Shown here: positions 16,840 through 46,318 of the stretch, piece by piece | Position numbering within the stretch: the stretch's first letter is position 1 | Layout of the letters: each line of letters opens with the position of its first letter | Source: Megalodesulfovibrio gigas DSM 1382 = ATCC 19364 | GTDB lineage: Bacteria > Desulfobacterota > Desulfovibrionia > Desulfovibrionales > Desulfovibrionaceae | Direction: 5' to 3' | DNA: 46,361 nucleotides | NCBI RefSeq assembly: GCF_000468495.1 | Contig: NC_022444.1 | Location: 263,809 to 310,169 of the forward strand | The notes under the pieces: model-generated | Told to the model about the DNA's origin: nothing | What the model saw: only the letters and a program-made list of their open reading frames with translations | Database searches by the model: none | Translations under genes and position numbers: made by a program

Positions 16840-18063
16840 TCACTGTCTGCGGCCCTCCAGCAGGGCTGCGTAGACGTCCATTGTCCTGCGGGCCAGCGCC
16901 CTGGCGTCAAAGGCTTCCTCGGCCTTCCTGCGCGCGGCAGCAGCCATGGACGTGCGCAGCGCCGGCGTTTCCGCCACACGCCGCATGGCCTCGGCCAAAG
17001 GCGGCCACTGCCCGGCCGGCACGCACAGCGCATGCTCGCCCAGGGTTCTGCCAGCCCGGACCTCCTCGGCCCGCGGCGCGGCAATCTCCCGGCACCCCGG
17101 CACATCGGTGACAATCACCGGCACCCCGCAGGCCAGTGCCTCCTGCATGCTCACGGGCACACCCTCGCGGTATGACGGCAGGATGGCGAAATCCGCCAGG
17201 CTCCATAGCTGCGCCATCTCCTCCTGCCAGCCCAAAAACCGCACGTTGCCCAGCCCGGCGAAGGTCTGCATGTCCGCCTCGGTGAGGGAGCAGGGATTGC
17301 CCGGGTCCGGCGCGCCAGCCACCAGCAACCGCAGGGACGGCGTTGCCGTCGCCAGGGCCTGCGCCGCCAGCATGGTTTCGCGGATGCCCTTGTCGAACAG
17401 CAGCCGGGCCGCCATCACGGCCACCACCTGCCGATCGGTACAGCCCAGGGCCGCACGGCGACGGCGACGTTCTTCCACAGACAACAGATTCGGCCGAAAG
17501 CGGGTCAGATCCACCCCGCTGCCGGGCACCACCTGCGTCAGCGCCCGGCCCGTGAGCCCACGCCAGGTGAAATAGGTGTGATCGTCCTCGTTCTGGAACA
17601 GCACGGCATCGCAGCGAGCCGCCGAGCGGGCGTAGCACTGATGCAAGGCCATGCGCAGGGCCATGCCCCTGAGTCCCGGCCGCAGGAACCCGGACCCCAG
17701 CCCGGTGACGGCGTTCACCAGCAGCGGTCGCCTGCGCCAGGGCAGCGCCGCCCGGCACAGCAGGTTCGGCAGGTGGGTGAAGCTGTGCACCACATCGAAC
17801 CGCCGGCCGGCAAACAGCCGGGCCAACCCGGCCCGGGCTTGCAAGTGTCTGCCCAGGCCACGAGCGGCCAGGGCCTCGCGCGAAGCCGGATACTCCAGCA
17901 GATCCACGCCCAGCTCCTCGATCTCCCGGGCATGACGGCCGCGCGGGACCACGGCGCTCACCCGCCAGCCATCCTCCAGCAGCATCTGCATGAGGGTACG
18001 GCGGAAGCGGGCCAGATTCAGATCCACATGCGACACCAAGGCGATGGATGGCGACTCGCTCAT
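16840..18063 (-). CDS. GT4-type glycosyltransferase
   Basis: GT-B fold glycosyltransferase of 407 residues, likely adding a sugar to a lipid-linked or surface polysaccharide precursor. The N-terminal domain starts SIALVSHVDLNLARFR. The C-terminal donor domain has MAARLLFDKGIRE, RFLGWQEEMAQLWSLADF and the GT4 E-x7-E type motif in YREGVPVSMQEALACGVPV. The start is the ATG at 18063, overlapping the asparagine synthase stop as ATGA; the frame runs 15 codons further upstream but only into that gene. Relatives include CapM/PglA-like transferases; donor and acceptor are unknown. Last gene of the M23-asnB-GT4 operon. Confidence 0.9.
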   Translation of the reverse strand: MSESPSIALVSHVDLNLARFRRTLMQMLLEDGWRVSAVVPRGRHAREIEELGVDLLEYPASREALAARGLGRHLQARAGLARLFAGRRFDVVHSFTHLPNLLCRAALPWRRRPLLVNAVTGLGSGFLRPGLRGMALRMALHQCYARSAARCDAVLFQNEDDHTYFTWRGLTGRALTQVVPGSGVDLTRFRPNLLSVEERRRRRAALGCTDRQVVAVMAARLLFDKGIRETMLAAQALATATPSLRLLVAGAPDPGNPCSLTEADMQTFAGLGNVRFLGWQEEMAQLWSLADFAILPSYREGVPVSMQEALACGVPVIVTDVPGCREIAAPRAEEVRAGRTLGEHALCVPAGQWPPLAEAMRRVAETPALRTSMAAAARRKAEEAFDARALARRTMDVYAALLEGRRQ

Positions 18064-20078
18064 GCCCGCCAGACCTCCAGCCAGCGTTGAAACATCAACG
18101 CCGTCCACAATGCATACTGCCGATTGCGCCGGCCGGACTGGTGCTCGTCCCAGGCCTGGCGCACGGCCACGGGGTCCAGGAACCCCTGCGCCCTGAGCCG
18201 GGAGGGATGCAGCAGATCGTCAGCCCAGGCCTTGAGGGGACCGCGCAGCCAGTGTTCCAGGGGCACGCCGAAGCCCTGCTTGGGCCGATTCAGGTGCGGC
18301 AGGGGGTGAAGCGTGTCCAGCATCCGACGCAGCACCACCTTGCCCCTGCCCCCGGCCACCCGCGCCGCCAGGGGCAGCCGCCAGGCGGCCTCGGCCACGC
18401 GACGATCCAGGTACGGGCAGCGCACCTCAATGGATGCCGCCATGGACGCGCGGTCCACCTTGGGCAGGATGTCCCAGGCCAGATAGCCCGCCTGATCCAT
18501 GGCCTGCATCCAGAAGACGAAGGGCAGCTCCGGCATCCCCGCCAGCTCCTGTTCCATCGCGGCCAGGGGATTGGGGATGACCGTCCCGGCCCCGCCGCGG
18601 CGCAGGGGCGGGTCTGTCCATTGGCAGAGAAAGGCGTGGTAGAAATCCCGGGACGACGACGCCCGCAACGCCTGGCCGAGCTTGTGGATCTTGTCCCGAA
18701 ACACGGTCTGCCGCCAGCGCGCCGGCAGCCGGGGGGCGCAGGCTTCGTAGGCCGTCGCCAGCAGCGCCTCGCCGCCATGCTCCAGCACCCTGGCCAGCAC
18801 CTGGGCCAGCAGCAGGCGGACGGAGAGCGGGATGGACGCCATGCGCTGCCAGAGCCCCGGGGCGCGCAGGTGCCGGGTGTAGCCGGCGAACAGCTCGTCC
18901 CCGCCGTCCCCGGACAGCAACACCACCGCATGCCGTCGCGCCAGACGGGACAGCAGCAGCGTGGGCAACTGGGAGGCGTCGGCAAAGGGCTCGTCATAGA
19001 CCATCGGCATGTCGGCGATGCAGGCCAGGGCGTCCGCCTCGCTGACCGATTCCACCACGTGCCGCAGTCCCAGGCTGGCGGCGGTCCTGCGGGCAACGTC
19101 CGCCTCGTCATACTCGGCATGGGAGGACGCCATGGTGAAGGCGACGAGTTCGGACACACCGCCGGCAGCGGCCGCCCGGGCCGCCAGCACGGCCACCAGA
19201 CTGGAATCAATGCCGCCAGACAGGAAGACCCCGACCGGCACATCCGCCTGCAGCCGGCAGGTCACGGCGTCCTGCAGCAACGGCCCCATCACCTCACACG
19301 CCGCATCCAGGGAGGGAAACGGCGCCGCCACCCCGTGACGGACGACCTCGCCCAGGCGCCACCATCGCTCGGGCGCAGGCAGCCGGCGATCCAGCACCGC
19401 ATCGTCAGCAATGGTCAGCCATGTGCCGGGCGGCAGGCTGTGCAGTCCTTCCCAGATGCACCAGGGCGCGGGCACGGCGGCATAGCGGAAGAACAGGGCC
19501 AGGGCCTGACGATCCAGGGCCGGCGGGGCGGCCCGCCAGCAGGACGTGGCGGCCAGGGCCTTGAGTTCCGAGGCAAAAACGAACTCCCGGCCCAGCCATC
19601 CATAATAGAGCGGCTTCTTGCCAAAGGCGTCCCGGGCCAGATGCAGGGTGCGGGTATGGGCATCCCAGCAGGCCAGGGCGAACATGCCCTGGATCCGGGC
19701 CAGGGTCTGCGCCACGCCCCAGGCGGCAATGCCCGCCAGCAGGGTTTCGGTGTCGCAATGACTGCGGAAGGGATACGGCAGCTCCCGGCGCAGGGTCAGG
19801 TGATTGTAGATCTCGCCGTTGTAGACGAGATGCCAGCGACCGTCGGACGTGGCCAGGGGCTGGGTCCCGGCCTGGGATCGATCCAGAATGGCCAGCCGGC
19901 GATGGGCCAGCCCCACCGTGGAAGGCGAGGCGCGGGAGGCGTCAGCGGGGGACGTGTCCAGCCAGACGCCGGCGGCATCAGGGCCGCGATGGCGCAGGGC
20001 GTCGGCCATGGCCTGCAGGTCCGCCTGCATGCCCTCCAGGGGAGCGCCGAGACGCCACAACCCGGCAATGCCGCACAC
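18060..20078 (-). CDS. asnB: Asparagine synthase (glutamine-hydrolysing), AsnB family
   Basis: 672-residue two-domain amidotransferase. The N-terminal glutaminase domain has the catalytic Cys2 (MCGIAGLW) and the loops RHRGPDAAG, LAHRRLAILD and VYNGEIYNH. The synthetase domain has the ATP-binding PP-loop FLSGGIDSS at about residue 285, then LSGDGGDELFAGY. The start must be the ATG at 20078, since Cys2 is needed for catalysis. The position between an M23 peptidase and a glycosyltransferase, with overlap to the latter, suggests the paralogue class found in polysaccharide clusters, which amidates a sugar or peptide rather than free aspartate. That functional narrowing is inference. Confidence 0.9.
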   Translation of the reverse strand: MCGIAGLWRLGAPLEGMQADLQAMADALRHRGPDAAGVWLDTSPADASRASPSTVGLAHRRLAILDRSQAGTQPLATSDGRWHLVYNGEIYNHLTLRRELPYPFRSHCDTETLLAGIAAWGVAQTLARIQGMFALACWDAHTRTLHLARDAFGKKPLYYGWLGREFVFASELKALAATSCWRAAPPALDRQALALFFRYAAVPAPWCIWEGLHSLPPGTWLTIADDAVLDRRLPAPERWWRLGEVVRHGVAAPFPSLDAACEVMGPLLQDAVTCRLQADVPVGVFLSGGIDSSLVAVLAARAAAAGGVSELVAFTMASSHAEYDEADVARRTAASLGLRHVVESVSEADALACIADMPMVYDEPFADASQLPTLLLSRLARRHAVVLLSGDGGDELFAGYTRHLRAPGLWQRMASIPLSVRLLLAQVLARVLEHGGEALLATAYEACAPRLPARWRQTVFRDKIHKLGQALRASSSRDFYHAFLCQWTDPPLRRGGAGTVIPNPLAAMEQELAGMPELPFVFWMQAMDQAGYLAWDILPKVDRASMAASIEVRCPYLDRRVAEAAWRLPLAARVAGGRGKVVLRRMLDTLHPLPHLNRPKQGFGVPLEHWLRGPLKAWADDLLHPSRLRAQGFLDPVAVRQAWDEHQSGRRNRQYALWTALMFQRWLEVWRA

Positions 20079-20087
20079 GGGGCCAGC

Positions 20088-20987
20088 CTATTCCAGAATA
20101 TAGCGCATGGGATTCACGGGCGCGCCGTTGAGGCGCACTTCGTAATGCAGGTGCGGGCCGGTAGAGGTGCCGGTGTTGCCCATGGAGGCGATGAGCTGGC
20201 CGCGCTCGGTCTTGTCCCCCACCTTCACATTGAAGTCCTGCAGATGGGAATAGCGCGTCACCAGACCGCCGCCGTGCTGGACAACCAGGGTCTTGCCATT
20301 GGCGGCGTCGTTGGCGGCAAAGGTCACCACACCCTTGGCCGGGGCATAGATGGGCGTGCCAATCTTGTTGGAGATGTCCACCCCCTGATGGAATTCGTTG
20401 CGCCCGGTGAAGGGGGAACGCCGCGGCCCGAAGGCGGACGTCACCCAGCCCTGCGTGGGCCAGATGGAGGGGATGGACGCCAGCTGCTCCAGATTGCCGC
20501 GCAACGCGTCGATGATCTGTTCCTGACGCACCAGTTCCAGCTGGGCATCCGTGGTCAGGGAATCCAGGAAATCGTGCATGCGGCGGGCCAGGCGTTCCTG
20601 CCGCAGCAGGGCGGCCTTTTCCGCAAAATCCTCGGCCTTGGGATTGCCCACGGAGCCCACGGCTTCCACCTGGGAATCCAGATTCATCATCACGCGCAGT
20701 TGGGAGTCAAAGTCGCGAATGCGGGTCAGGTCCTTTTCCAGGGCATTGATCTTGCCGGACAGGGCAAGCATCTGCGTTTCCTGGGCCTTGACCTTCTTTT
20801 GCGCCGCCTCCACGCTTTGTTCCATGAACTTCACGCCGTGCAACGAGCGGAGAAACACCACGTTGCCGACCACCAGCAGGACGAACAGGCCGCCCAGCAG
20901 AAAGAACATCCACGAATGCAGACGCAGCTTGCTGCAGGTGCCCTGGTTATCCTTGAAGATGACGACGTGATACTTGCGAAACAGCAT
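20088..20987 (-). CDS. M23 (LytM-type) zinc endopeptidase, membrane-anchored
   Basis: Peptidoglycan-type peptidase or LytM-domain regulator of 299 residues. A short cytoplasmic N-terminus is followed by a transmembrane anchor (about residues 27-46) and a coiled coil (about 55-165). The C-terminal M23 domain has Zn ligands His200 and Asp204 (HQGVD), His248 (YSHL) and His279/His281 (PHLHYE). All ligands are present, so it should be enzymatically active, acting in the periplasm. The start is the ATG at 20987 with GGGAGG just upstream; the open frame extends 54 codons earlier without a ribosome site. Nine bases separate its stop from asnB, so it heads the operon. Confidence 0.9.
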   Translation of the reverse strand: MLFRKYHVVIFKDNQGTCSKLRLHSWMFFLLGGLFVLLVVGNVVFLRSLHGVKFMEQSVEAAQKKVKAQETQMLALSGKINALEKDLTRIRDFDSQLRVMMNLDSQVEAVGSVGNPKAEDFAEKAALLRQERLARRMHDFLDSLTTDAQLELVRQEQIIDALRGNLEQLASIPSIWPTQGWVTSAFGPRRSPFTGRNEFHQGVDISNKIGTPIYAPAKGVVTFAANDAANGKTLVVQHGGGLVTRYSHLQDFNVKVGDKTERGQLIASMGNTGTSTGPHLHYEVRLNGAPVNPMRYILE

Positions 20988-21149
20988 AGGCCTCCCGGGA
21001 TACGGATGGTTCGGGGCTGGCGATGCGCAACCGGCATGCGGCCCCCGCCCGCACCGGACTGGATCCGGCGGCAGGCGCGCCGCTGATTGTACGAACCGTT
21101 GCCAGCTTGCGGAAAAACAACACGCCGCAGCATAGCGTTTGAGATACAC

Positions 21150-27061: not shown

Positions 27062-27073
27062 CCCGACTTCGCC

Positions 27074-28195
27074 ATGACCACCACTCGCGACTATTATGAA
27101 ATCCTCGGCCTGGAGCGCGCTGCCACCGAGGACGAGATCAAAAAGGCGTACCGCAAAAAGGCCTTCGAGTTCCACCCGGACCGCAACCCCGGGGACGACG
27201 AAGCCGAACGCCAGTTCAAGGAAGCCGCCGAGGCGTACGAAGTGCTGCGCGATCCGGACAAACGCGCCCGCTACGACCGCTTTGGTCATGCCGGCGTGGA
27301 CGCCAACGGCTTCCACGGCTTTTCCTCCACCGAAGACATCTTTTCCACCTTCGGCGACATCTTCTCGGACTTCTTCGGCTTCTCCACCATGGGCGGGGGC
27401 CGGCGCGGTCCGCGGCCGCAACCCGGGGCAGACCTGCGCTACAACCTGCGCATCTCCTTCCGCGAAGCCGCCAAAGGCACCGAGGTCACCCTCGACATCC
27501 CCAAGGATGTGCCCTGCGAGCATTGCGGCGGCAATGGCGCGGAGCCCGGGCATCCGCCCGAAACCTGCAAGCAGTGCGGCGGCGCCGGACAGATTCACCA
27601 GTCCCAGGGCTTCTTCCGCATTGCCGTCACCTGCCCCATCTGCCGCGGGCAAGGCACGGTGGTGACCACGCCGTGCTCGGAATGCCGCGGTCGGGGCGTG
27701 AATCAGCAGGTGAAGGAACTCTCCGTGCGCGTGCCTGCCGGGGTGGACAACGGCTCCCGCCTGCGCCTGCGCGGCGAGGGCGAGCCGGGCACCCATGGCG
27801 GCCCCCCCGGGGATCTGTACGTGGTCATCAGCGTGGAGGAAGACAAGGTCTTCCGCCGCCAGGGTCAGGATCTGATCTACACCACGGAAGTCAGCTTCGT
27901 GCAGGCGGCCCTGGGCGACAAGATCGAGGTCCCCACCCTGGACGAGCCCCTGCGCATGGAGATTCCCAAGGGCGTGCAGTCCGGCGAGGTCTTCAAGCTC
28001 AAGGGCAAGGGCCTGCCGTACCTGGGCTCCACCCACTCCGGCAATCTGCTGGTGGAGGTGAAGGTCAAAACGCCCACCAGCCTCTCCAAAAAGCAGGAAG
28101 AACTGCTGCGCGAGTTTCAGCGCCTGGAAGAGGAACGGCCCATGAAAAAGGTGAAGGACTTCATCAAAAAAGCCGGCGAGGTGCTGGGCGGCTGA
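27074..28195 (+). CDS. dnaJ: Chaperone DnaJ
   Basis: Hsp40 cochaperone that stimulates DnaK ATPase; 373 residues. The J domain has the HPD triad at 34-36. A Gly/Phe-rich region follows (about 75-115). The zinc domain has all four CxxCxGxG repeats: CEHCGGNG, CKQCGGAG, CPICRGQG and CSECRGRG. Then come the C-terminal substrate-binding domains. Complete and canonical. dnaK is not in the window. Confidence 0.96.
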   Translation: MTTTRDYYEILGLERAATEDEIKKAYRKKAFEFHPDRNPGDDEAERQFKEAAEAYEVLRDPDKRARYDRFGHAGVDANGFHGFSSTEDIFSTFGDIFSDFFGFSTMGGGRRGPRPQPGADLRYNLRISFREAAKGTEVTLDIPKDVPCEHCGGNGAEPGHPPETCKQCGGAGQIHQSQGFFRIAVTCPICRGQGTVVTTPCSECRGRGVNQQVKELSVRVPAGVDNGSRLRLRGEGEPGTHGGPPGDLYVVISVEEDKVFRRQGQDLIYTTEVSFVQAALGDKIEVPTLDEPLRMEIPKGVQSGEVFKLKGKGLPYLGSTHSGNLLVEVKVKTPTSLSKKQEELLREFQRLEEERPMKKVKDFIKKAGEVLGG

Positions 28196-40338: not shown

Positions 40339-42075
40339 TCACATGCCCAGCACGGTGCGGGCCAGCATGAGCACTTCCGACGGGCGGAAAGGCTTGGTCA
40401 TGTACACGTCTGCCCCGGATTCCAGGCCGCGCTGGGAATCGAATTCCTGCCCCTTGGCTGTGAGCATGACGACATACACGCCGTCCAGGGCCAGCTTGTT
40501 CTTCACCCAGTCGCACACGTCAAAGCCGTTCATCCTGGGCATCATGACATCCAGAAAGACGAGGGACGGCCGTTCTTCCTTGATGAGGGCCAGGCCCTCT
40601 TCGCCGTTCTCGGCATACAGCAGGGCGACGCCCTCTTCTTCCAGGGTCTCCAGGGTTTCTTCCAGGAGCATGCGGATGTGCGGCTCGTCATCCACAATGA
40701 GAATCTTGGAGGCCGTCTTGGCCGTGGCCGCCATGGCGGGAGCCTCCGGCGGCACAGCCACGGTGCTGATGTCCAGGGGAGCCTCGCCATCCAGGAACAG
40801 CACCGGGCCACTGGCGCCCACATCCTCGCAGACGGCCAGGGCCTCCACGTCCCACACGCCTTCACCGTCCGACAAGGATGCTTGGGGCGAATAAGGCGCC
40901 GGGGCATGCCAGCTCTTGCCGGCAAGTTCCGCATACAGGGCCATGGCGGCGGCGTGCCGGTCATCGCGTTGCAGGATGGCAACCACATGCTCCAGGGCAG
41001 CCTCGTCCCGGCGCAACATCTGGCAGAGCCTGGCCAGGGCCAGACGCAAACCGACATCGTCCGGATCCAGGGCATGGGCCTTCTCATACAGGACGATGGC
41101 CGCATCGGCCCGGCCGCGCTGGAGCACCACATCGGCCACGGCTTGATAGGGGTTCACGACCAGGCAGCGGGTGCGCTTCATGTCCCGATAGAGTTTTTCC
41201 GCCTCGGCATTGTGGCCGCGCCAGACGTAGCCTTCTGCGGCCTTGTTCAGATAATGATGAAATTTCGCCAAATCACCCTTGCGTTGCCAGGCAATGGCCA
41301 GACCGCGGCAGGCATCCGGAAAACGGCCGCGCATGGCCAGGATTTTGGAGAAGGAGGCGATGGCCCGGTCGAGGTCCTTGGCCTTGAGCGCCTCGCGGCC
41401 TTCGGCGAACAGCCGGCGGGCCTTGTCGCTTGCTGTCTCCCCAAGGGCGTCGCCAAACGTCTCGCCAGACGTCTCACCAGACGTCGCGCCAGATATCGCG
41501 CCAGTCGCCTTGACGGGTACCCGGGCTGGCGGCGCGGCGGGTGCTTCCGCTGGCTGTTCCAGCGGTGGCGCGGGCTGCACAAGTACGGGTTGCACAGGTA
41601 CGGGCTGCACAGGTACGGGCTGCACAGGTACGGATTGTACTGGCGCAGGTTGTACAGGCGGCACATGCACCGGAGCGACGTACCCGGCCGGCATGGCCGC
41701 CTCGGCAGTCTGCATCGCCAGTTCCTGCAGCGTCTGGGAGGAAAAGAGACGCGGCAGCACCGCAGGCAGGCCCAATTCCCGCGCCTGTCGCACCTTCTGC
41801 CCGTCGTCGTCCGACAGATGCACGATGCAGGGGATGCGCATCCCCTCGGCCTGGCGGAGAAACTGCAGCGCTGCGCGATCGTCCGCCATCAGGCAGCTCC
41901 AGCCGATGAGCACCAGGTCCGTCGTTCCTTCGGCTTCGGTCAATACCTGCACGGGCGATTGCCCATTGGCAGATCGAACCGCCATGCCGCAGCACGTGGC
42001 CAGATTGCAGGCGATTTTCTGCAGAATGGAATCGTCCTGGACAACAAGCACGCGCAAACGCGGAAGGTGTTGCAT
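40339..42075 (-). CDS. Pseudo-receiver, TPR and receiver domain protein
   Basis: 578 residues. The N-terminal domain (about 1-125) looks like a response receiver (LRVLVVQDDS), but the phospho-acceptor position reads LVLIGWSCL, so the Asp is missing and the late Lys is Arg: a pseudo-receiver. A repetitive Pro/Val/Gln linker and a Gly/Glu/Thr-Ser linker follow. A TPR block spans about 205-385 (KAKDLDRAIASFSKILAMRG, ADAAIVLYEKAHALDPDDV). The C-terminal receiver is intact (ILIVDDEP, FLDVMMPRMNG, YMTKPF). No DNA-binding domain. The ATG at 42075 is preceded by AAAGGA; the frame opens 41 codons earlier. Likely a signalling adaptor. Confidence 0.87.
   Translation of the reverse strand: MQHLPRLRVLVVQDDSILQKIACNLATCCGMAVRSANGQSPVQVLTEAEGTTDLVLIGWSCLMADDRAALQFLRQAEGMRIPCIVHLSDDDGQKVRQARELGLPAVLPRLFSSQTLQELAMQTAEAAMPAGYVAPVHVPPVQPAPVQSVPVQPVPVQPVPVQPVLVQPAPPLEQPAEAPAAPPARVPVKATGAISGATSGETSGETFGDALGETASDKARRLFAEGREALKAKDLDRAIASFSKILAMRGRFPDACRGLAIAWQRKGDLAKFHHYLNKAAEGYVWRGHNAEAEKLYRDMKRTRCLVVNPYQAVADVVLQRGRADAAIVLYEKAHALDPDDVGLRLALARLCQMLRRDEAALEHVVAILQRDDRHAAAMALYAELAGKSWHAPAPYSPQASLSDGEGVWDVEALAVCEDVGASGPVLFLDGEAPLDISTVAVPPEAPAMAATAKTASKILIVDDEPHIRMLLEETLETLEEEGVALLYAENGEEGLALIKEERPSLVFLDVMMPRMNGFDVCDWVKNKLALDGVYVVMLTAKGQEFDSQRGLESGADVYMTKPFRPSEVLMLARTVLGM
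41452..41499 (-). repeat. Four 12-bp tandem repeats in the TPR/receiver gene
   Basis: Plus-strand units GCCAAACGTCTC, GCCAGACGTCTC, ACCAGACGTCGC and GCCAGATATCGC encode Ser/Thr-Gly-Glu-type tetrapeptides on the minus strand, in frame. Confidence 0.85.
41572..41631 (-). repeat. Four 15-bp tandem repeats in the TPR/receiver gene
   Basis: Plus-strand unit GGGCTGCACAGGTAC, four copies with one or two changes, encoding Val-Pro-Val-Gln-Pro repeats on the minus strand. Together with the neighbouring 12-bp repeats this forms the flexible linker between the pseudo-receiver and the TPR block. Confidence 0.92.
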
Positions 42076-42262
42076 GTCTATCCTTTCCCGGCCCAACGAC
42101 GCAGCATGGCCATGCCCGCCCTTGCCATCTGTACGGGCGGTCCATCCGGCCGGCGGCAACGGCTCCTGCCCGGCGGCAAGGTGCGTTCCTGTGCTCACGG
42201 CTGTTCCCTACCATGCAATTTCGTAGTTCTCATGACAGATGCGACGCAGTCGCAGCGCCCCC

Positions 42263-42667
42263 TCATGCCTCTTTGAGAAAAATATGGATGGCCACCTCGC
42301 CCACCGTACCATGCGCACCCTGGTGCACACGGGTGACAACGGCCCCGAGCATCTTTCCGGCATCCATGAGTCGGGCAAGGATTGGATTGATTTTTCGGGG
42401 CACATACCCAAGCTTTTTTCCGTCTGCCGTCAGCACCTCGATGGCCAGGGCATCATACGGGTTGCCCGGTTCGCGCCGCAGCGTCAGGGCTGGCGGCTCG
42501 CCCTCCACAGTCAGGGCCTCGGCAGCCGCGTAGTAGGCGAGACCGGCAATGTGCGTATCGATCAGAAAAATTTCTGCGGTGAAGGGGATGGCGATCTCCA
42601 CCGTGCCCGCGGTCGCGCCCATGAGCTGCCCGCTCAGGCCAGAGAATGCGACCGCAATATCTGCCAT
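42263..42667 (-). CDS. HIRAN domain protein
   Basis: 134 residues, essentially one HIRAN domain: IDTHIAGLAYYAAAEAL, LRREPGNPYDALAIEVL and KKLGYVPRKINPILARLMDAG. HIRAN domains in Rad5/HLTF bind 3' single-stranded DNA ends; stand-alone bacterial versions are uncharacterised. The ATG overlaps the stop of the upstream coiled-coil gene (ATGA), so the two are translationally coupled. The TPR/receiver gene starts about 187 bases downstream on the same strand. Function beyond nucleic-acid binding is not assigned. Confidence 0.85.
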   Translation of the reverse strand: MADIAVAFSGLSGQLMGATAGTVEIAIPFTAEIFLIDTHIAGLAYYAAAEALTVEGEPPALTLRREPGNPYDALAIEVLTADGKKLGYVPRKINPILARLMDAGKMLGAVVTRVHQGAHGTVGEVAIHIFLKEA

Positions 42668-43497
42668 CACTGCATCCACATGCCGCCACGCTGCAGGAGT
42701 GCGGCATACGTGGCCTGCAGTTCCTCGCCCCTGCGGCGCATGGCTGCACAGGCAGCGTGCAGCTCGGCCCGCTTGGCGGCAATCCACGCCGGATCGTGCA
42801 GTTCCTTTTCCAGGCTCAGGGGCGGAAGCTGCCGGGCGTCGTGCAATCGCTGCAGACGGGTCGTCGTCAGGGCTTCCAGCCGGTCCCGCTCCTGCCGCAA
42901 GGCCTCCAGCCCGGCGCAGGCCGCAGGGGCTGCCATCTCCGCATGCGATTGCACAGTCACCAGCAGGGCTTCCAGGGTTTCGACGTCGCCCCGGGCATAG
43001 CCGTCCTGCACGCTGTGCCAGTACAACTGATACGCGGCGGAATCCGCGTGCAAATCCGGATGCAACAGCAGGCACAGGCTGCGGTACAGGGCCTTGAGCT
43101 GCTGCTGCGCCGCCTCTGAGAGAAATTCCACGTGATTGAGCAACTGCATGCTGGTCTGCACCTGATGCTCCTTGGCTTCGAGCTCCTGCTGCCATTGCGC
43201 CTTGATCTGCTGGATCTGCAATTCAAGACGCTGCAGCTCGTCCATACCGATGCGCCCGCCCCGATTCAGGATGGCCGTGATTTCCCGGATCCGGTAGCCG
43301 CATTCATTCACCACCACCCGCGCCTTGAGCAGTTCCAGCTCATGCATACCTATTTCCGCTTGATACACGGCCTGCAGCAGCGGCACGGTGTGGGTTCTCA
43401 AACAGGCCTCTTGTTCAAGCAACTCACTGAGTTGACGCCTGAATGCCTCTATCTGCGCAGCAAGTCGGCCCTGTTCCGGGTGCAGTGCAATGCTCAT
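42667..43497 (-). CDS. Coiled-coil protein with degenerate J-domain-like segment
   Basis: 276 residues from the ATG at 43497 (a TTG 11 codons earlier is possible). Long helical, Gln/Leu/Glu-rich segments (about 5-125 and 180-260) flank a short module at about 130-175, KALYRSLCLLLHPDLHAD followed by YWHSVQDGYARGDVETLEAL. The HPD tripeptide after a Tyr-Arg-x-Leu helix, and the following helix, match helices II and III of a J domain. This suggests recruitment of a DnaK-type chaperone. Coupled to the HIRAN gene by overlap. Not a recognised named family. Confidence 0.75.
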   Translation of the reverse strand: MSIALHPEQGRLAAQIEAFRRQLSELLEQEACLRTHTVPLLQAVYQAEIGMHELELLKARVVVNECGYRIREITAILNRGGRIGMDELQRLELQIQQIKAQWQQELEAKEHQVQTSMQLLNHVEFLSEAAQQQLKALYRSLCLLLHPDLHADSAAYQLYWHSVQDGYARGDVETLEALLVTVQSHAEMAAPAACAGLEALRQERDRLEALTTTRLQRLHDARQLPPLSLEKELHDPAWIAAKRAELHAACAAMRRRGEELQATYAALLQRGGMWMQ

Positions 43498-43592: not shown

Positions 43593-45227
43593 CTATTCCG
43601 CCTGGGCCAAGGCGGTGCAGCCCACGGAATCCAGGGCGCGCAACGCCTGCCAATGTTCGAGCCACTTGTAATAGAATTTCACATCGTTCCCCATCACGTT
43701 GCCCTGCCCGGCCCAGTTCAGGGCGCTGCGCACGGACGTGCCCGAGTTCTGCCGGTGCACACAGGTCACCGTGCCGCAGTACCAGACCTTCCAGCCGGCC
43801 AGGCACAGCTGCAGATCGTGGTCGGTATCGTCAATCTGGGAAGGAGAATAGCGGATATCGAACCACGGCGCATCCTTGAGGGCGGCCACCCGCAGCAGGT
43901 GCTGGCAGCCCATGACCACCCGGGTTTCCCGGACCACATCGTACAAGCCGATGTCGTACTGCAGGTACGGCGTGGGCAGGCTGACGCGGATGGCCTGCTC
44001 CGTGCAAACAGACACATGCCGGTACAGGTACTGCAAGAGTGCATGCTCCCCGGGAAACACCACCTTGCAGCCCACATTGCCGATGCGTGGATCGGCCTCG
44101 GCCACGGTGAGGAAGTGCGCCAGCCAGTCCGGCTGCAGGTATACGTCGTCGTCCAGAAAGGCGACGTACTCGCTCTGCTGCACCGCGGGCTGGCTCAGGA
44201 GCCAGTTGCGGGCCGCGGGCGCGCCCACATTCACCGGCAGGTCGAGGATGTCCAGCGCATTGTGCGGGAAGCGCTCCCGGGCACGCGCCACCACCTCGCG
44301 GCTGTGGTCGCTGCAGCCGTTGAGCAGCACCAGGATGCGGGCCGGCCCGATCTGGCAACCGGCCAGGCTCTCCAGCGTCTCGCCCAGCATCTGCGCCTTG
44401 TTGAAGCTGTACAGGCAGATGCAGACGGATTTTTCCTGCACCAATGCGTGGTTGGGGACAAGCGGTTGCCGCAGGGCCTGCATGCGCAGGGCGTACGGCG
44501 TGGTGAGGGGGTCCAGGGCCTGGGCCTGGGCGTACAATTCCAGGCAGGTATCCAGATCGCCCTGCCGCCGCCACAGTTCCGCCGCGCGGCTGAGGGTGAA
44601 GGAATCGCCCTGGGCCAGGGGCGCTACCCGCTCCCACAGGGGCAGGGCGTTGGCGTCGTCCCCCATGGTGGCGAAATGGTCGAAGCGTCGTTTCTCCCAG
44701 AGCGGCGCCAGCACCCTGGGACACTGAAAACGCTGCAGGAGCGGATCCGGCGCGCGGCCCTCGTAGAGATCCACCCGCAGGAGCAGATCCGCAAACACCA
44801 CGGCCATGGGGTGCCGGGTCAGCATGCCCTGGCAGATCTTGCGGATGTCTTCCGCATGATGCTTGAACAGGGCGTGGCGGACCTCCTCATACACCTGCGG
44901 CTCGGGATTGGTGGCCAGCAGCACCTTGCGCACGGTCTCGATATTGGGGAACAGCCCGGTCTGCCCGCCGATGTGCAGGATGTCCGGATCGAAGGGCGAC
45001 AACTGCACCGCCGCCTTGACGGCCTGCTCGAACAGCCTCGCCACCCGGGGCGGCAGCTGCATGGGGCCTTCTGCCAGCACACGGTTGATGAAGGATGCCG
45101 CCAGGGGCGCATCTATCTGGAACGTATTGAGATAGTTTCGATAACTGGCGGCGGCGGCGCCAAGATCCAGCGCGCCGAACTCGCCGGCAGCGCGCTCCTG
45201 TTTTTTGATGGACATTTGTTCATGCAT
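43593..45227 (-). CDS. Helical/TPR-GT2 glycosyltransferase
   Basis: 544 residues. The N-terminal half (about 1-255) is helical, with TPR-like parts (LSRAAELWRRQGDLDTCLELY). The C-terminal half is a GT-A family 2 transferase starting KSVCICLYSFNKAQMLGETL, with VNVGAPAARNWLL and the metal-binding FLDDDVYLQPDWLAHF. The acidic DDTDHDLQLCLAGWKVWYCG is the usual late active-site region. No membrane helix. The ATG at 45227 is seven bases after AAGGGAG; an ATG at 45248 is an alternative. Possibly a protein or flagellin glycosyltransferase, since TPR fusion is common there; that is inference. Confidence 0.85.
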   Translation of the reverse strand: MHEQMSIKKQERAAGEFGALDLGAAAASYRNYLNTFQIDAPLAASFINRVLAEGPMQLPPRVARLFEQAVKAAVQLSPFDPDILHIGGQTGLFPNIETVRKVLLATNPEPQVYEEVRHALFKHHAEDIRKICQGMLTRHPMAVVFADLLLRVDLYEGRAPDPLLQRFQCPRVLAPLWEKRRFDHFATMGDDANALPLWERVAPLAQGDSFTLSRAAELWRRQGDLDTCLELYAQAQALDPLTTPYALRMQALRQPLVPNHALVQEKSVCICLYSFNKAQMLGETLESLAGCQIGPARILVLLNGCSDHSREVVARARERFPHNALDILDLPVNVGAPAARNWLLSQPAVQQSEYVAFLDDDVYLQPDWLAHFLTVAEADPRIGNVGCKVVFPGEHALLQYLYRHVSVCTEQAIRVSLPTPYLQYDIGLYDVVRETRVVMGCQHLLRVAALKDAPWFDIRYSPSQIDDTDHDLQLCLAGWKVWYCGTVTCVHRQNSGTSVRSALNWAGQGNVMGNDVKFYYKWLEHWQALRALDSVGCTALAQAE

Positions 45228-45372
45228 GTGGAGGCTCCCTTGCGGCATTGCACTGGCTACTGTTCTGTCATTGCAGCATTTTCAATGTGTTGCAATAGAT
45301 AAATCGCAGTGTGGCCCTGCACCCGCACTGCCAGCCGAGGCCGCGGGACATTGCGCCCCTGGCCCCGCAATC

Positions 45373-45466: not shown

Positions 45467-46318
45467 ATGCCATACCCCCGAGGGAAAACCATCTCCTTTA
45501 TTGACAACGCAAATATCTATCGCGGCGTCGGTAAGGCCGGCTGGCGTATCGATTGGAAAAAATTGCAGGAGTTCATCGAAAAAGGCGGCCCCGTCTGGCA
45601 GACGTACCTCTTCGGCACGGCCATGATGCAGACCGAGCGGGACATGCCCGCCGCTTCCAGCTCGGAAGCCTTCTACCACTTCGTACGCAGCCAGCTGCAC
45701 TGGCACGTGAAGCTTTACGAGCCCAGGACGTATACCTCCACCTGCCGCAATTGCCAACACACCCGCGCCATGATTGAAGAAAAAGGCGTGGACGTGGGCA
45801 TTGCCACCAAGATGCTCATCCTGGCCCTGAACAAAGGCTACGACACGGCCATCCTCATGAGCGGCGACGGCGACCTCTACGAATGCGTCCATTACATCCT
45901 GAACCTGGGCATTCGCGTGGAGATCATCAGTTGGAAGGATCAGCTGGCCCGCGAGCTGTTCGACGTGGCGTCCAATGTCATCTATTTCGATGATATCCGC
46001 GACGAAATCGAGCTGTTCCGCGAGCCTTCCAGGCTTGATGCCAGGCCCGATGCCAGACCAGACGTCAGGCCCGACGCCAGACCCGACATGCGCAACGATC
46101 GTCCTGCCGACTACCGCAGCGATCGTCCTGCCGACTACCGCAGCGATCGTCCTGCCGACTACCGCGACAGCAGCGGCCTGCTGATTCGGCCGCCGCGCTC
46201 CGGCTACCAGGACTATCGCCCCGAATTCAACCAGGACTACCAGCCCAAAAACCAGTTTGCGGACGATCCGGACGAACTGGATGATGTGGACGACGGGCCG
46301 GCTCCGGGAAATCGCTAG
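45467..46318 (+). CDS. LabA-like NYN (PIN-fold) domain protein
   Basis: 283 residues. The NYN nuclease-like domain (about 7-175) has the acidic residues of the family: Asp13 in FIDNANIYRG, Asp109 in KGVDVGIATKML, and Asp134/Asp136 in MSGDGDLYECV. Members (LabA/DUF88) are thought to be RNases, sometimes regulatory. A CxxC pair (Cys93, Cys96) sits in a loop. The tail from about 186 is disordered and repetitive: Asp-Ala-Arg-Pro four times, then Asp-Arg-Pro-Ala-Asp-Tyr-Arg-Ser three times, and an acidic end. A charged tail of this kind suggests RNA or protein contacts. GAAAGGA precedes the ATG. The TAG stop begins repeat copy D. Confidence 0.9.
   Translation: MPYPRGKTISFIDNANIYRGVGKAGWRIDWKKLQEFIEKGGPVWQTYLFGTAMMQTERDMPAASSSEAFYHFVRSQLHWHVKLYEPRTYTSTCRNCQHTRAMIEEKGVDVGIATKMLILALNKGYDTAILMSGDGDLYECVHYILNLGIRVEIISWKDQLARELFDVASNVIYFDDIRDEIELFREPSRLDARPDARPDVRPDARPDMRNDRPADYRSDRPADYRSDRPADYRDSSGLLIRPPRSGYQDYRPEFNQDYQPKNQFADDPDELDDVDDGPAPGNR
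46037..46084 (+). repeat. Four 12-bp tandem repeats in the NYN gene
   Basis: Units of the type GATGCCAGGCCC, four copies with small changes, encoding Asp-Ala(Val)-Arg-Pro from residue 191. Confidence 0.9.
46096..46167 (+). repeat. Three 24-bp tandem repeats in the NYN gene
   Basis: Unit CGATCGTCCTGCCGACTACC plus GCAG, three near-identical copies, encoding an eight-residue Asp-Arg-Pro-Ala-Asp-Tyr-Arg-Ser repeat (about 211-234). The near-identity of third-codon positions shows recent duplication. Confidence 0.95.

Follow-up and report, generated by a model that had tools for sequence, protein, structure and literature searches.

An overlapping gene pair for a J-domain-like coiled-coil protein and a HIRAN protein in Megalodesulfovibrio gigas

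The window, a stretch of 46,361 nucleotides of Megalodesulfovibrio gigas DSM 1382 = ATCC 19364 (contig NC_022444.1, positions 263,809 to 310,169 of the forward strand), contains a gene for a J-domain-like (J-like) coiled-coil protein followed directly by a gene for a small HIRAN protein (Table 1). The pair had been placed at 42263-43497 in the first-pass annotation and described as having an overlapping stop and start; both statements are right, the TGA of the J gene and the ATG of the HIRAN gene having one base in common (TGATG). An alternative GTG start, one codon upstream, would give the HIRAN gene a 4-nt overlap with the J gene. Judged from the stop/start overlap, translation of the two genes is probably coupled. 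A glycosyltransferase, a response regulator, a chemoreceptor and an NYN protein are encoded in the surroundings (Pfam), and a Pfam scan of the neighbours revealed no repair, replication or defence genes beside the pair. The NYN-domain protein (gene at 45467-46318, + strand) ends in short C-terminal repeats (RPDARPD, DRPADYRS) and is 69% identical to the copy in a sister species. Elsewhere in the window, a 1012-aa open reading frame (18048-21086, + strand) has no Pfam match at 1e-6. The canonical DnaJ of the genome, which carries a J domain, a zinc finger and a C-terminal domain (Pfam), is encoded at 27074-28195 (+ strand; open frame given as 27062-28192), about 14 kb from the pair, and served as an internal control.

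Table 1. Coordinates in the window of the J-like/HIRAN gene pair, of features within it and of its neighbours
Feature	Coordinates	Strand	Remarks
J-like coiled-coil protein gene	42667..43497	-	276 aa, ATG start, stop within coordinates
HIRAN protein gene	42263..42667	-	134 aa from ATG, stop within coordinates
J stop / HIRAN start overlap, TGATG	42665..42669	-	read from sequence
HPD tripeptide codons (residues 146-148)	43054..43062	-	read from sequence
J-like helical hairpin, residues 128-169	42991..43116	-	AlphaFold2 model; alignments with J domains cover profile region 107-167
Upstream neighbour, outside the module: TPR + family 2 glycosyltransferase	43593..45248	-	ORF, Pfam
Downstream neighbour, outside the module: TPR protein with C-terminal response-regulator receiver domain	40339..42198	-	ORF, Pfam

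The J-like protein is mostly coiled coil, with the HPD tripeptide at residues 146-148. Searched alone, it matches the Pfam DnaJ family (PF00226) weakly and in the HPD region (E = 0.0021; 18.6 bits against a cut-off of 27.8), and a scan with NCBIfam gave no match of note. The same Pfam cut-off is passed by the J-like members of genome G702 and of the second IMG/VR pair (L024), with 29.3 and 29.7 bits. When a profile of six J-like members (A6) was compared with the PDB, about the first 30 matches were J domains, the best of them DNAJC5 (E = 2.2e-6); DnaJB and DnaJA members and bacterial DnaJ (2.6e-5) were among the further matches, and the alignments end nearly always at profile residue 167. Of 572 open frames in the window, A6 matches two, the J-like protein itself and the DnaJ of the genome (E = 2.4e-7), the latter over its J domain. 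A profile of four members from outside the order finds the J-like protein of the window at 7.9e-23. By these profile comparisons the HPD segment of the family is a J-domain homologue; for the window protein the assignment is clear because its relatives and the profile match J domains, its single-sequence score being below threshold. Pfam gave no DnaJ_C or DnaJ_CXXCXGXG match in the window protein, which, having neither zinc finger nor C-terminal domain, does not belong to class A or B DnaJ. No enzymatic domain was found in this protein by Pfam or NCBIfam.

The AlphaFold2 model of the J-like protein, built on a four-row alignment, has a mean pLDDT of 87.3 and consists of helices at residues 7-78, 85-122, 128-145, 154-169, 172-186, 197-221, 227-233 and 236-270. 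The HPD tripeptide is confidently modelled between the third and the fourth of these; helices flank residues 146-148 on both sides, which puts the tripeptide in a hairpin loop. When the whole model was compared with known folds, the matches listed by Foldseek and VIA-align were coiled coils and designed helical bundles, with no J domain among them, a result that does not exclude a J domain. The proposal in the first-pass annotation that the HPD lies in a J-like helical setting stands as regards sequence homology and a confident helix, HPD loop and helix; the listed fold matches gave no complete J fold.

Identity among the seven J proteins known from paired loci (see below) is 16-42%, with 77% between the two copies from IMG/VR, and residues H146, P147, D148, K135 and Y138 are invariant in all seven. 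The distance matrices of the J and HIRAN proteins are correlated (r = 0.91), and a value this high arose in 14 of 5040 permutations. Comparison of the two IMG/VR copies gives pS 0.82 and pN 0.145 for the J gene, and pS 0.89 and pN 0.12 for the HIRAN gene, so purifying selection acts on both. The two genes exist, overlap, are co-inherited, and keep the HPD and the HIRAN core. In J domains the basic residues of helix II contact DnaK. Position 135 is basic in 7/7 of the paired J-like proteins and position 139 is R or K in 6/7, and the remaining basic positions of helix II vary; such residues are few in the three Desulfovibrionales members, and the window protein has fewer than true J domains. This scarcity, together with the weak single-sequence score of 18.6 bits, would suit a decayed hairpin that works independently of DnaK as a scaffold, its coiled coil merely dimerising or tethering the HIRAN protein. 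This explanation is considered unlikely, as it has to be reconciled with the invariance of the HPD, K135 and Y138 at so low an identity and with members of other groups exceeding the Pfam J cut-off.

It has long been predicted that stand-alone HIRAN proteins read foreign or damaged DNA; in HLTF, the domain binds to DNA ends or single-stranded 3' ends. The HIRAN protein of the window matches Pfam HIRAN (PF08797) with 59.3 bits (cut-off 24.7; E = 3.4e-16), and a six-member HIRAN profile matches the HLTF HIRAN structure at 3e-8. An LMDAGK motif, N69 and D72 are common to the paired HIRANs. In HLTF, Y72 and Y93 border the dinucleotide/DNA pocket (PMC4666394); the profile alignment with HLTF places Y45 and Y71 of the window protein at these positions. 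Among the seven paired HIRANs the equivalents of Y72 and Y93 are Y/F/H and Y/H, respectively, so tyrosine is not universal. The AlphaFold2 model of the window HIRAN is poor (pLDDT 51).

Conservation of the pair in other genomes had been set as a test in the first-pass annotation, and the pair passed it: a J-like gene lies directly upstream of a HIRAN gene, in the same order, at seven independent loci, namely the window, G097, G105, G702, G559 and two IMG/VR contigs (five genomes within the phylum, the window's own included, plus the two contigs). The genes overlap by 1 or 4 nt at three loci and are separated by 4 nt at two, by 13 nt in G702 and by 85 nt in G559, so that the gap is 13 nt or less in 6/7. 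Searches with the J protein or with alignments gave family matches in 2/99 relatives, 3/348 genomes of the class and 3/395 genomes of the phylum (at 1e-9), as well as one full-length match among 17 genomes in the class that includes G702 and one match among 85 in that of G549, the genome sets behind these counts being overlapping. The distinct family loci in genomes are the five above and G790, which encodes a divergent J-like protein with no HIRAN beside it; in all the others HIRAN is directly downstream. Matches in G549, G551 and G572 were rejected as family members, being other J-domain proteins that match solely around the HPD. In the class of G702, 15 other genomes gave J-region matches that are presumably ordinary DnaJ-type proteins, and one short match in G417 lies outside the J region.

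Scanned with the HIRAN alignment, IMG/VR yielded 28 loci, three of them with J directly upstream; two of these (L025 and L026) are identical and were counted once. Scans of IMG/VR with the J protein of the window and with the four-member alignment gave no match; both pair contigs were found via the HIRAN alignment and were re-found later by J alignments. The J-like protein at L024 (3656-4951) has an extra in-frame N-terminal region of approximately 150 residues, with no Pfam match. HIRAN genes at L009 and L010 adjoin an apparent WYL-domain protein gene (judged by eye), with no J-like gene. The scan of GTDB genome contigs recovered one locus, the same in sequence as G105 (identical ORFs), and says little on rarity beyond the phylum because two short patterns were used. 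No match was obtained by tblastn of three J-like proteins against plasmid and phage collections; HIRAN queries gave three and four plasmid records and 34 phage records, all of them other HIRAN proteins, and no J-like gene was seen in the three plasmid neighbourhoods, out of four, that were inspected. On a Pelagibacterium plasmid (L053, 4136-5381) the HIRAN gene lies almost directly after a manganese catalase gene.

The pairing goes with a high HIRAN profile score. J is upstream in 7/7 testable HIRANs scoring at least 130 bits (one more, in G431, starts at a contig end) and in 0/57 HIRAN loci of 92 bits or less, a few of the latter being near-copies; this gap in score is partly built in, because the profile was trained on six pairs, G559 being absent from the training set. 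On a HIRAN tree of 35 rows, from which rows below 45 bits and repeat sequences had been removed, the paired label requires 2 changes, against a mean of 7.4 after shuffling, and none of 500 shuffles was as low. The paired HIRANs are not established as one clade, because two long-branched plasmid HIRANs intrude.

Genome G001 of a sister species, 87% complete, gave no match to J or HIRAN. Its NYN-glycosyltransferase genes and its chemoreceptor-response regulator genes are on two separate contigs, and the glycosyltransferase gene is followed by a different chemoreceptor gene. The gene order of G001 is thus broken here, and the window pair stands at an order break and not at a clean empty site. Horizontal acquisition of the pair would fit its patchy distribution and the broken gene order.

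The first-pass annotation also called for a look at nearby repair or defence genes. An association with defence or conflict genes holds at both IMG/VR loci, with hints at one or two others, and fails at the window locus; a role in DNA repair or replication stress is conjectural. Contig 3300029305_005973 carries, in order, a phage-type DNA polymerase, an ssDNA-binding protein, an exonuclease, a Y-family polymerase, an XRE-type regulator, the J and HIRAN genes, an ImmA/IrrE-type peptidase, an Mrr-type nuclease, HsdR, HsdM and HsdS. On contig 3300029305_007163 the pair, whose J protein has an extra N-terminal region, is preceded by a C5 methylase, an AAA_5 gene, an LlaJI nuclease, an HTH gene and a weak capP match, and followed by T5orf172 and a non-specific nuclease. 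The low G+C of these contigs (0.36-0.39) points to a possible origin in Bacillota. In G105 the pair has a HicB-type gene upstream; its neighbours are a transposase and FHA/PP2C/AAA genes in G559 and, by visual inspection, GAPDH-like, DUF1566-like and DUF169-like genes in G097. A defence setting is clear at 2/7 loci, suggestive at one or two, and none was seen at the others.

These settings bear on the main rival explanation, in which the pair is a unit of defence or toxin-antitoxin type, HIRAN being a sensor or antitoxin and the J-like protein an effector or adaptor released on phage infection. It would account for the restriction-modification genes that adjoin both IMG/VR copies, for the HTH and ImmA/IrrE-type genes, for the phage replication genes near one of the copies, for the HicB-type gene of G105 and for the patchy distribution (3/348 genomes of the class). 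HIRANs were also proposed as antitoxins of HipI kinases, with HIRANs described in HipN and HipL (PMC8262856), and HIRAN-HipA genes were counted as predicted defence (PMC11706625). Against it, no enzymatic domain was detected in the J-like protein, no PADLOC model for this protein is convincing (the PDC-M03B match covers positions 125-225 of 250 only, the second half of the profile), and no clear defence gene adjoins the window copy or most of the others in Desulfobacterota. A unit of this kind is possible though doubtful; it may be compatible with a module that recruits DnaK, so that both could be true.

At G702 (L116, 6311-8426) the pair is directly downstream of ARPP-1; an ADP-ribosylglycohydrolase gene adjoins in divergent orientation, and DUF3857 comes after HIRAN. 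Neighbourhoods of ARPP and HIRAN are already in print (PMC9503650), and HIRAN might on this ground recognise a nucleotide or an ADP-ribose-like ligand, the module belonging to ADP-ribose or nucleotide-repair pathways. Such a context is found at 1/7 loci, no ARPP was seen among the scanned neighbours at the other six, and the paired HIRANs retain an aromatic residue or His at the positions that stack in the HLTF DNA pocket; this role is regarded as very improbable.

The reading preferred here, at a probability of about 0.4, is that the pair forms a two-subunit module in which HIRAN reads DNA ends and a class C J protein recruits DnaK. The small HIRAN protein would be the recognition subunit, binding DNA ends or single-stranded 3' ends in the manner of HLTF HIRAN. 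Its class C partner, a long coiled coil bearing the J hairpin, would bind HIRAN and bring the DnaK of the cell to the HIRAN site, where DnaK could dismantle or remodel DNA-bound proteins at broken or cut DNA, at stalled forks or on invading phage DNA. Some bacteria would carry the module as an accessory among restriction-modification and prophage genes, and it may have a role in defence. DnaJ and DnaK are known to act on complexes bound to DNA during the replication of lambda and P1. The ordinary neighbours in the window, the scarcity of basic residues in helix II, the poor HIRAN model, the J-like protein of G790 with no HIRAN, and the lack of a J-domain fold match count against this two-subunit module. 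A more specific form of it, DnaK-dependent surveillance of DNA ends, is improbable: HIRAN would flag cut or replicating foreign DNA, the J-like protein would load Hsp70, the phage replisome or end-protecting proteins would be dismantled, and restriction systems would finish the DNA.

If the two-subunit module is real, the Hsp70 chaperone would be linked to bacterial DNA-end recognition by a dedicated and apparently mobile two-gene unit, and stand-alone HIRAN proteins would gain a testable bacterial function. It would also offer a defined place to seek chaperone use in phage defence, beside bNACHT25, which is reported to depend on DnaJ (PMC12169576). The surveillance form, if true, would amount to a chaperone-powered layer within bacterial immunity.

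The first-pass annotation held that J and HIRAN had not been described together, and no description of the pair was found in the open-licence PubMed Central papers searched; word searches in PMC2292703, PMC7824862, PMC5512222, PMC3482391 and PMC7641849 gave no mention of it. Each part is already in print, as are HIRAN with HipA and HIRAN with ARPP; a J-protein partner is the element for which searches of open-licence PubMed Central papers gave no report. Like hipIN (HipN being one of the HipS-HIRAN putative antitoxins, PMC8262856), the J-HIRAN pair is a two-gene unit with a possible role in conflict; it differs in that no HipA-type kinase and no HipS-like domain occur among the scanned neighbours, and it does not belong to hipIN. 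With the ARPP-HIRAN neighbourhoods the pair shares the G702 locus, where it follows ARPP-1 directly; the passage of PMC9503650 on these neighbourhoods names no J-like gene, and G702 extends this neighbourhood by a J partner. The J-like protein has, as class C J-domain proteins (PF00226) do, an HPD in a helix-loop-helix and is a profile homologue of solved J domains, and it differs from the DnaJ family in that its J hairpin is embedded in a long coiled coil, without zinc finger or DnaJ C-terminal domain. The paired HIRAN has the same domain as the known HIRAN proteins (PF08797; HLTF/Rad5 HIRAN; lp_0118, PDB 3k2y) by its Pfam and HLTF profile matches and is stand-alone, like those of many bacteria and phages; the paired subfamily, for which DNA binding is predicted, is set apart from other HIRANs by an N-terminal extension, the LMDAGK motif and the J-like partner.
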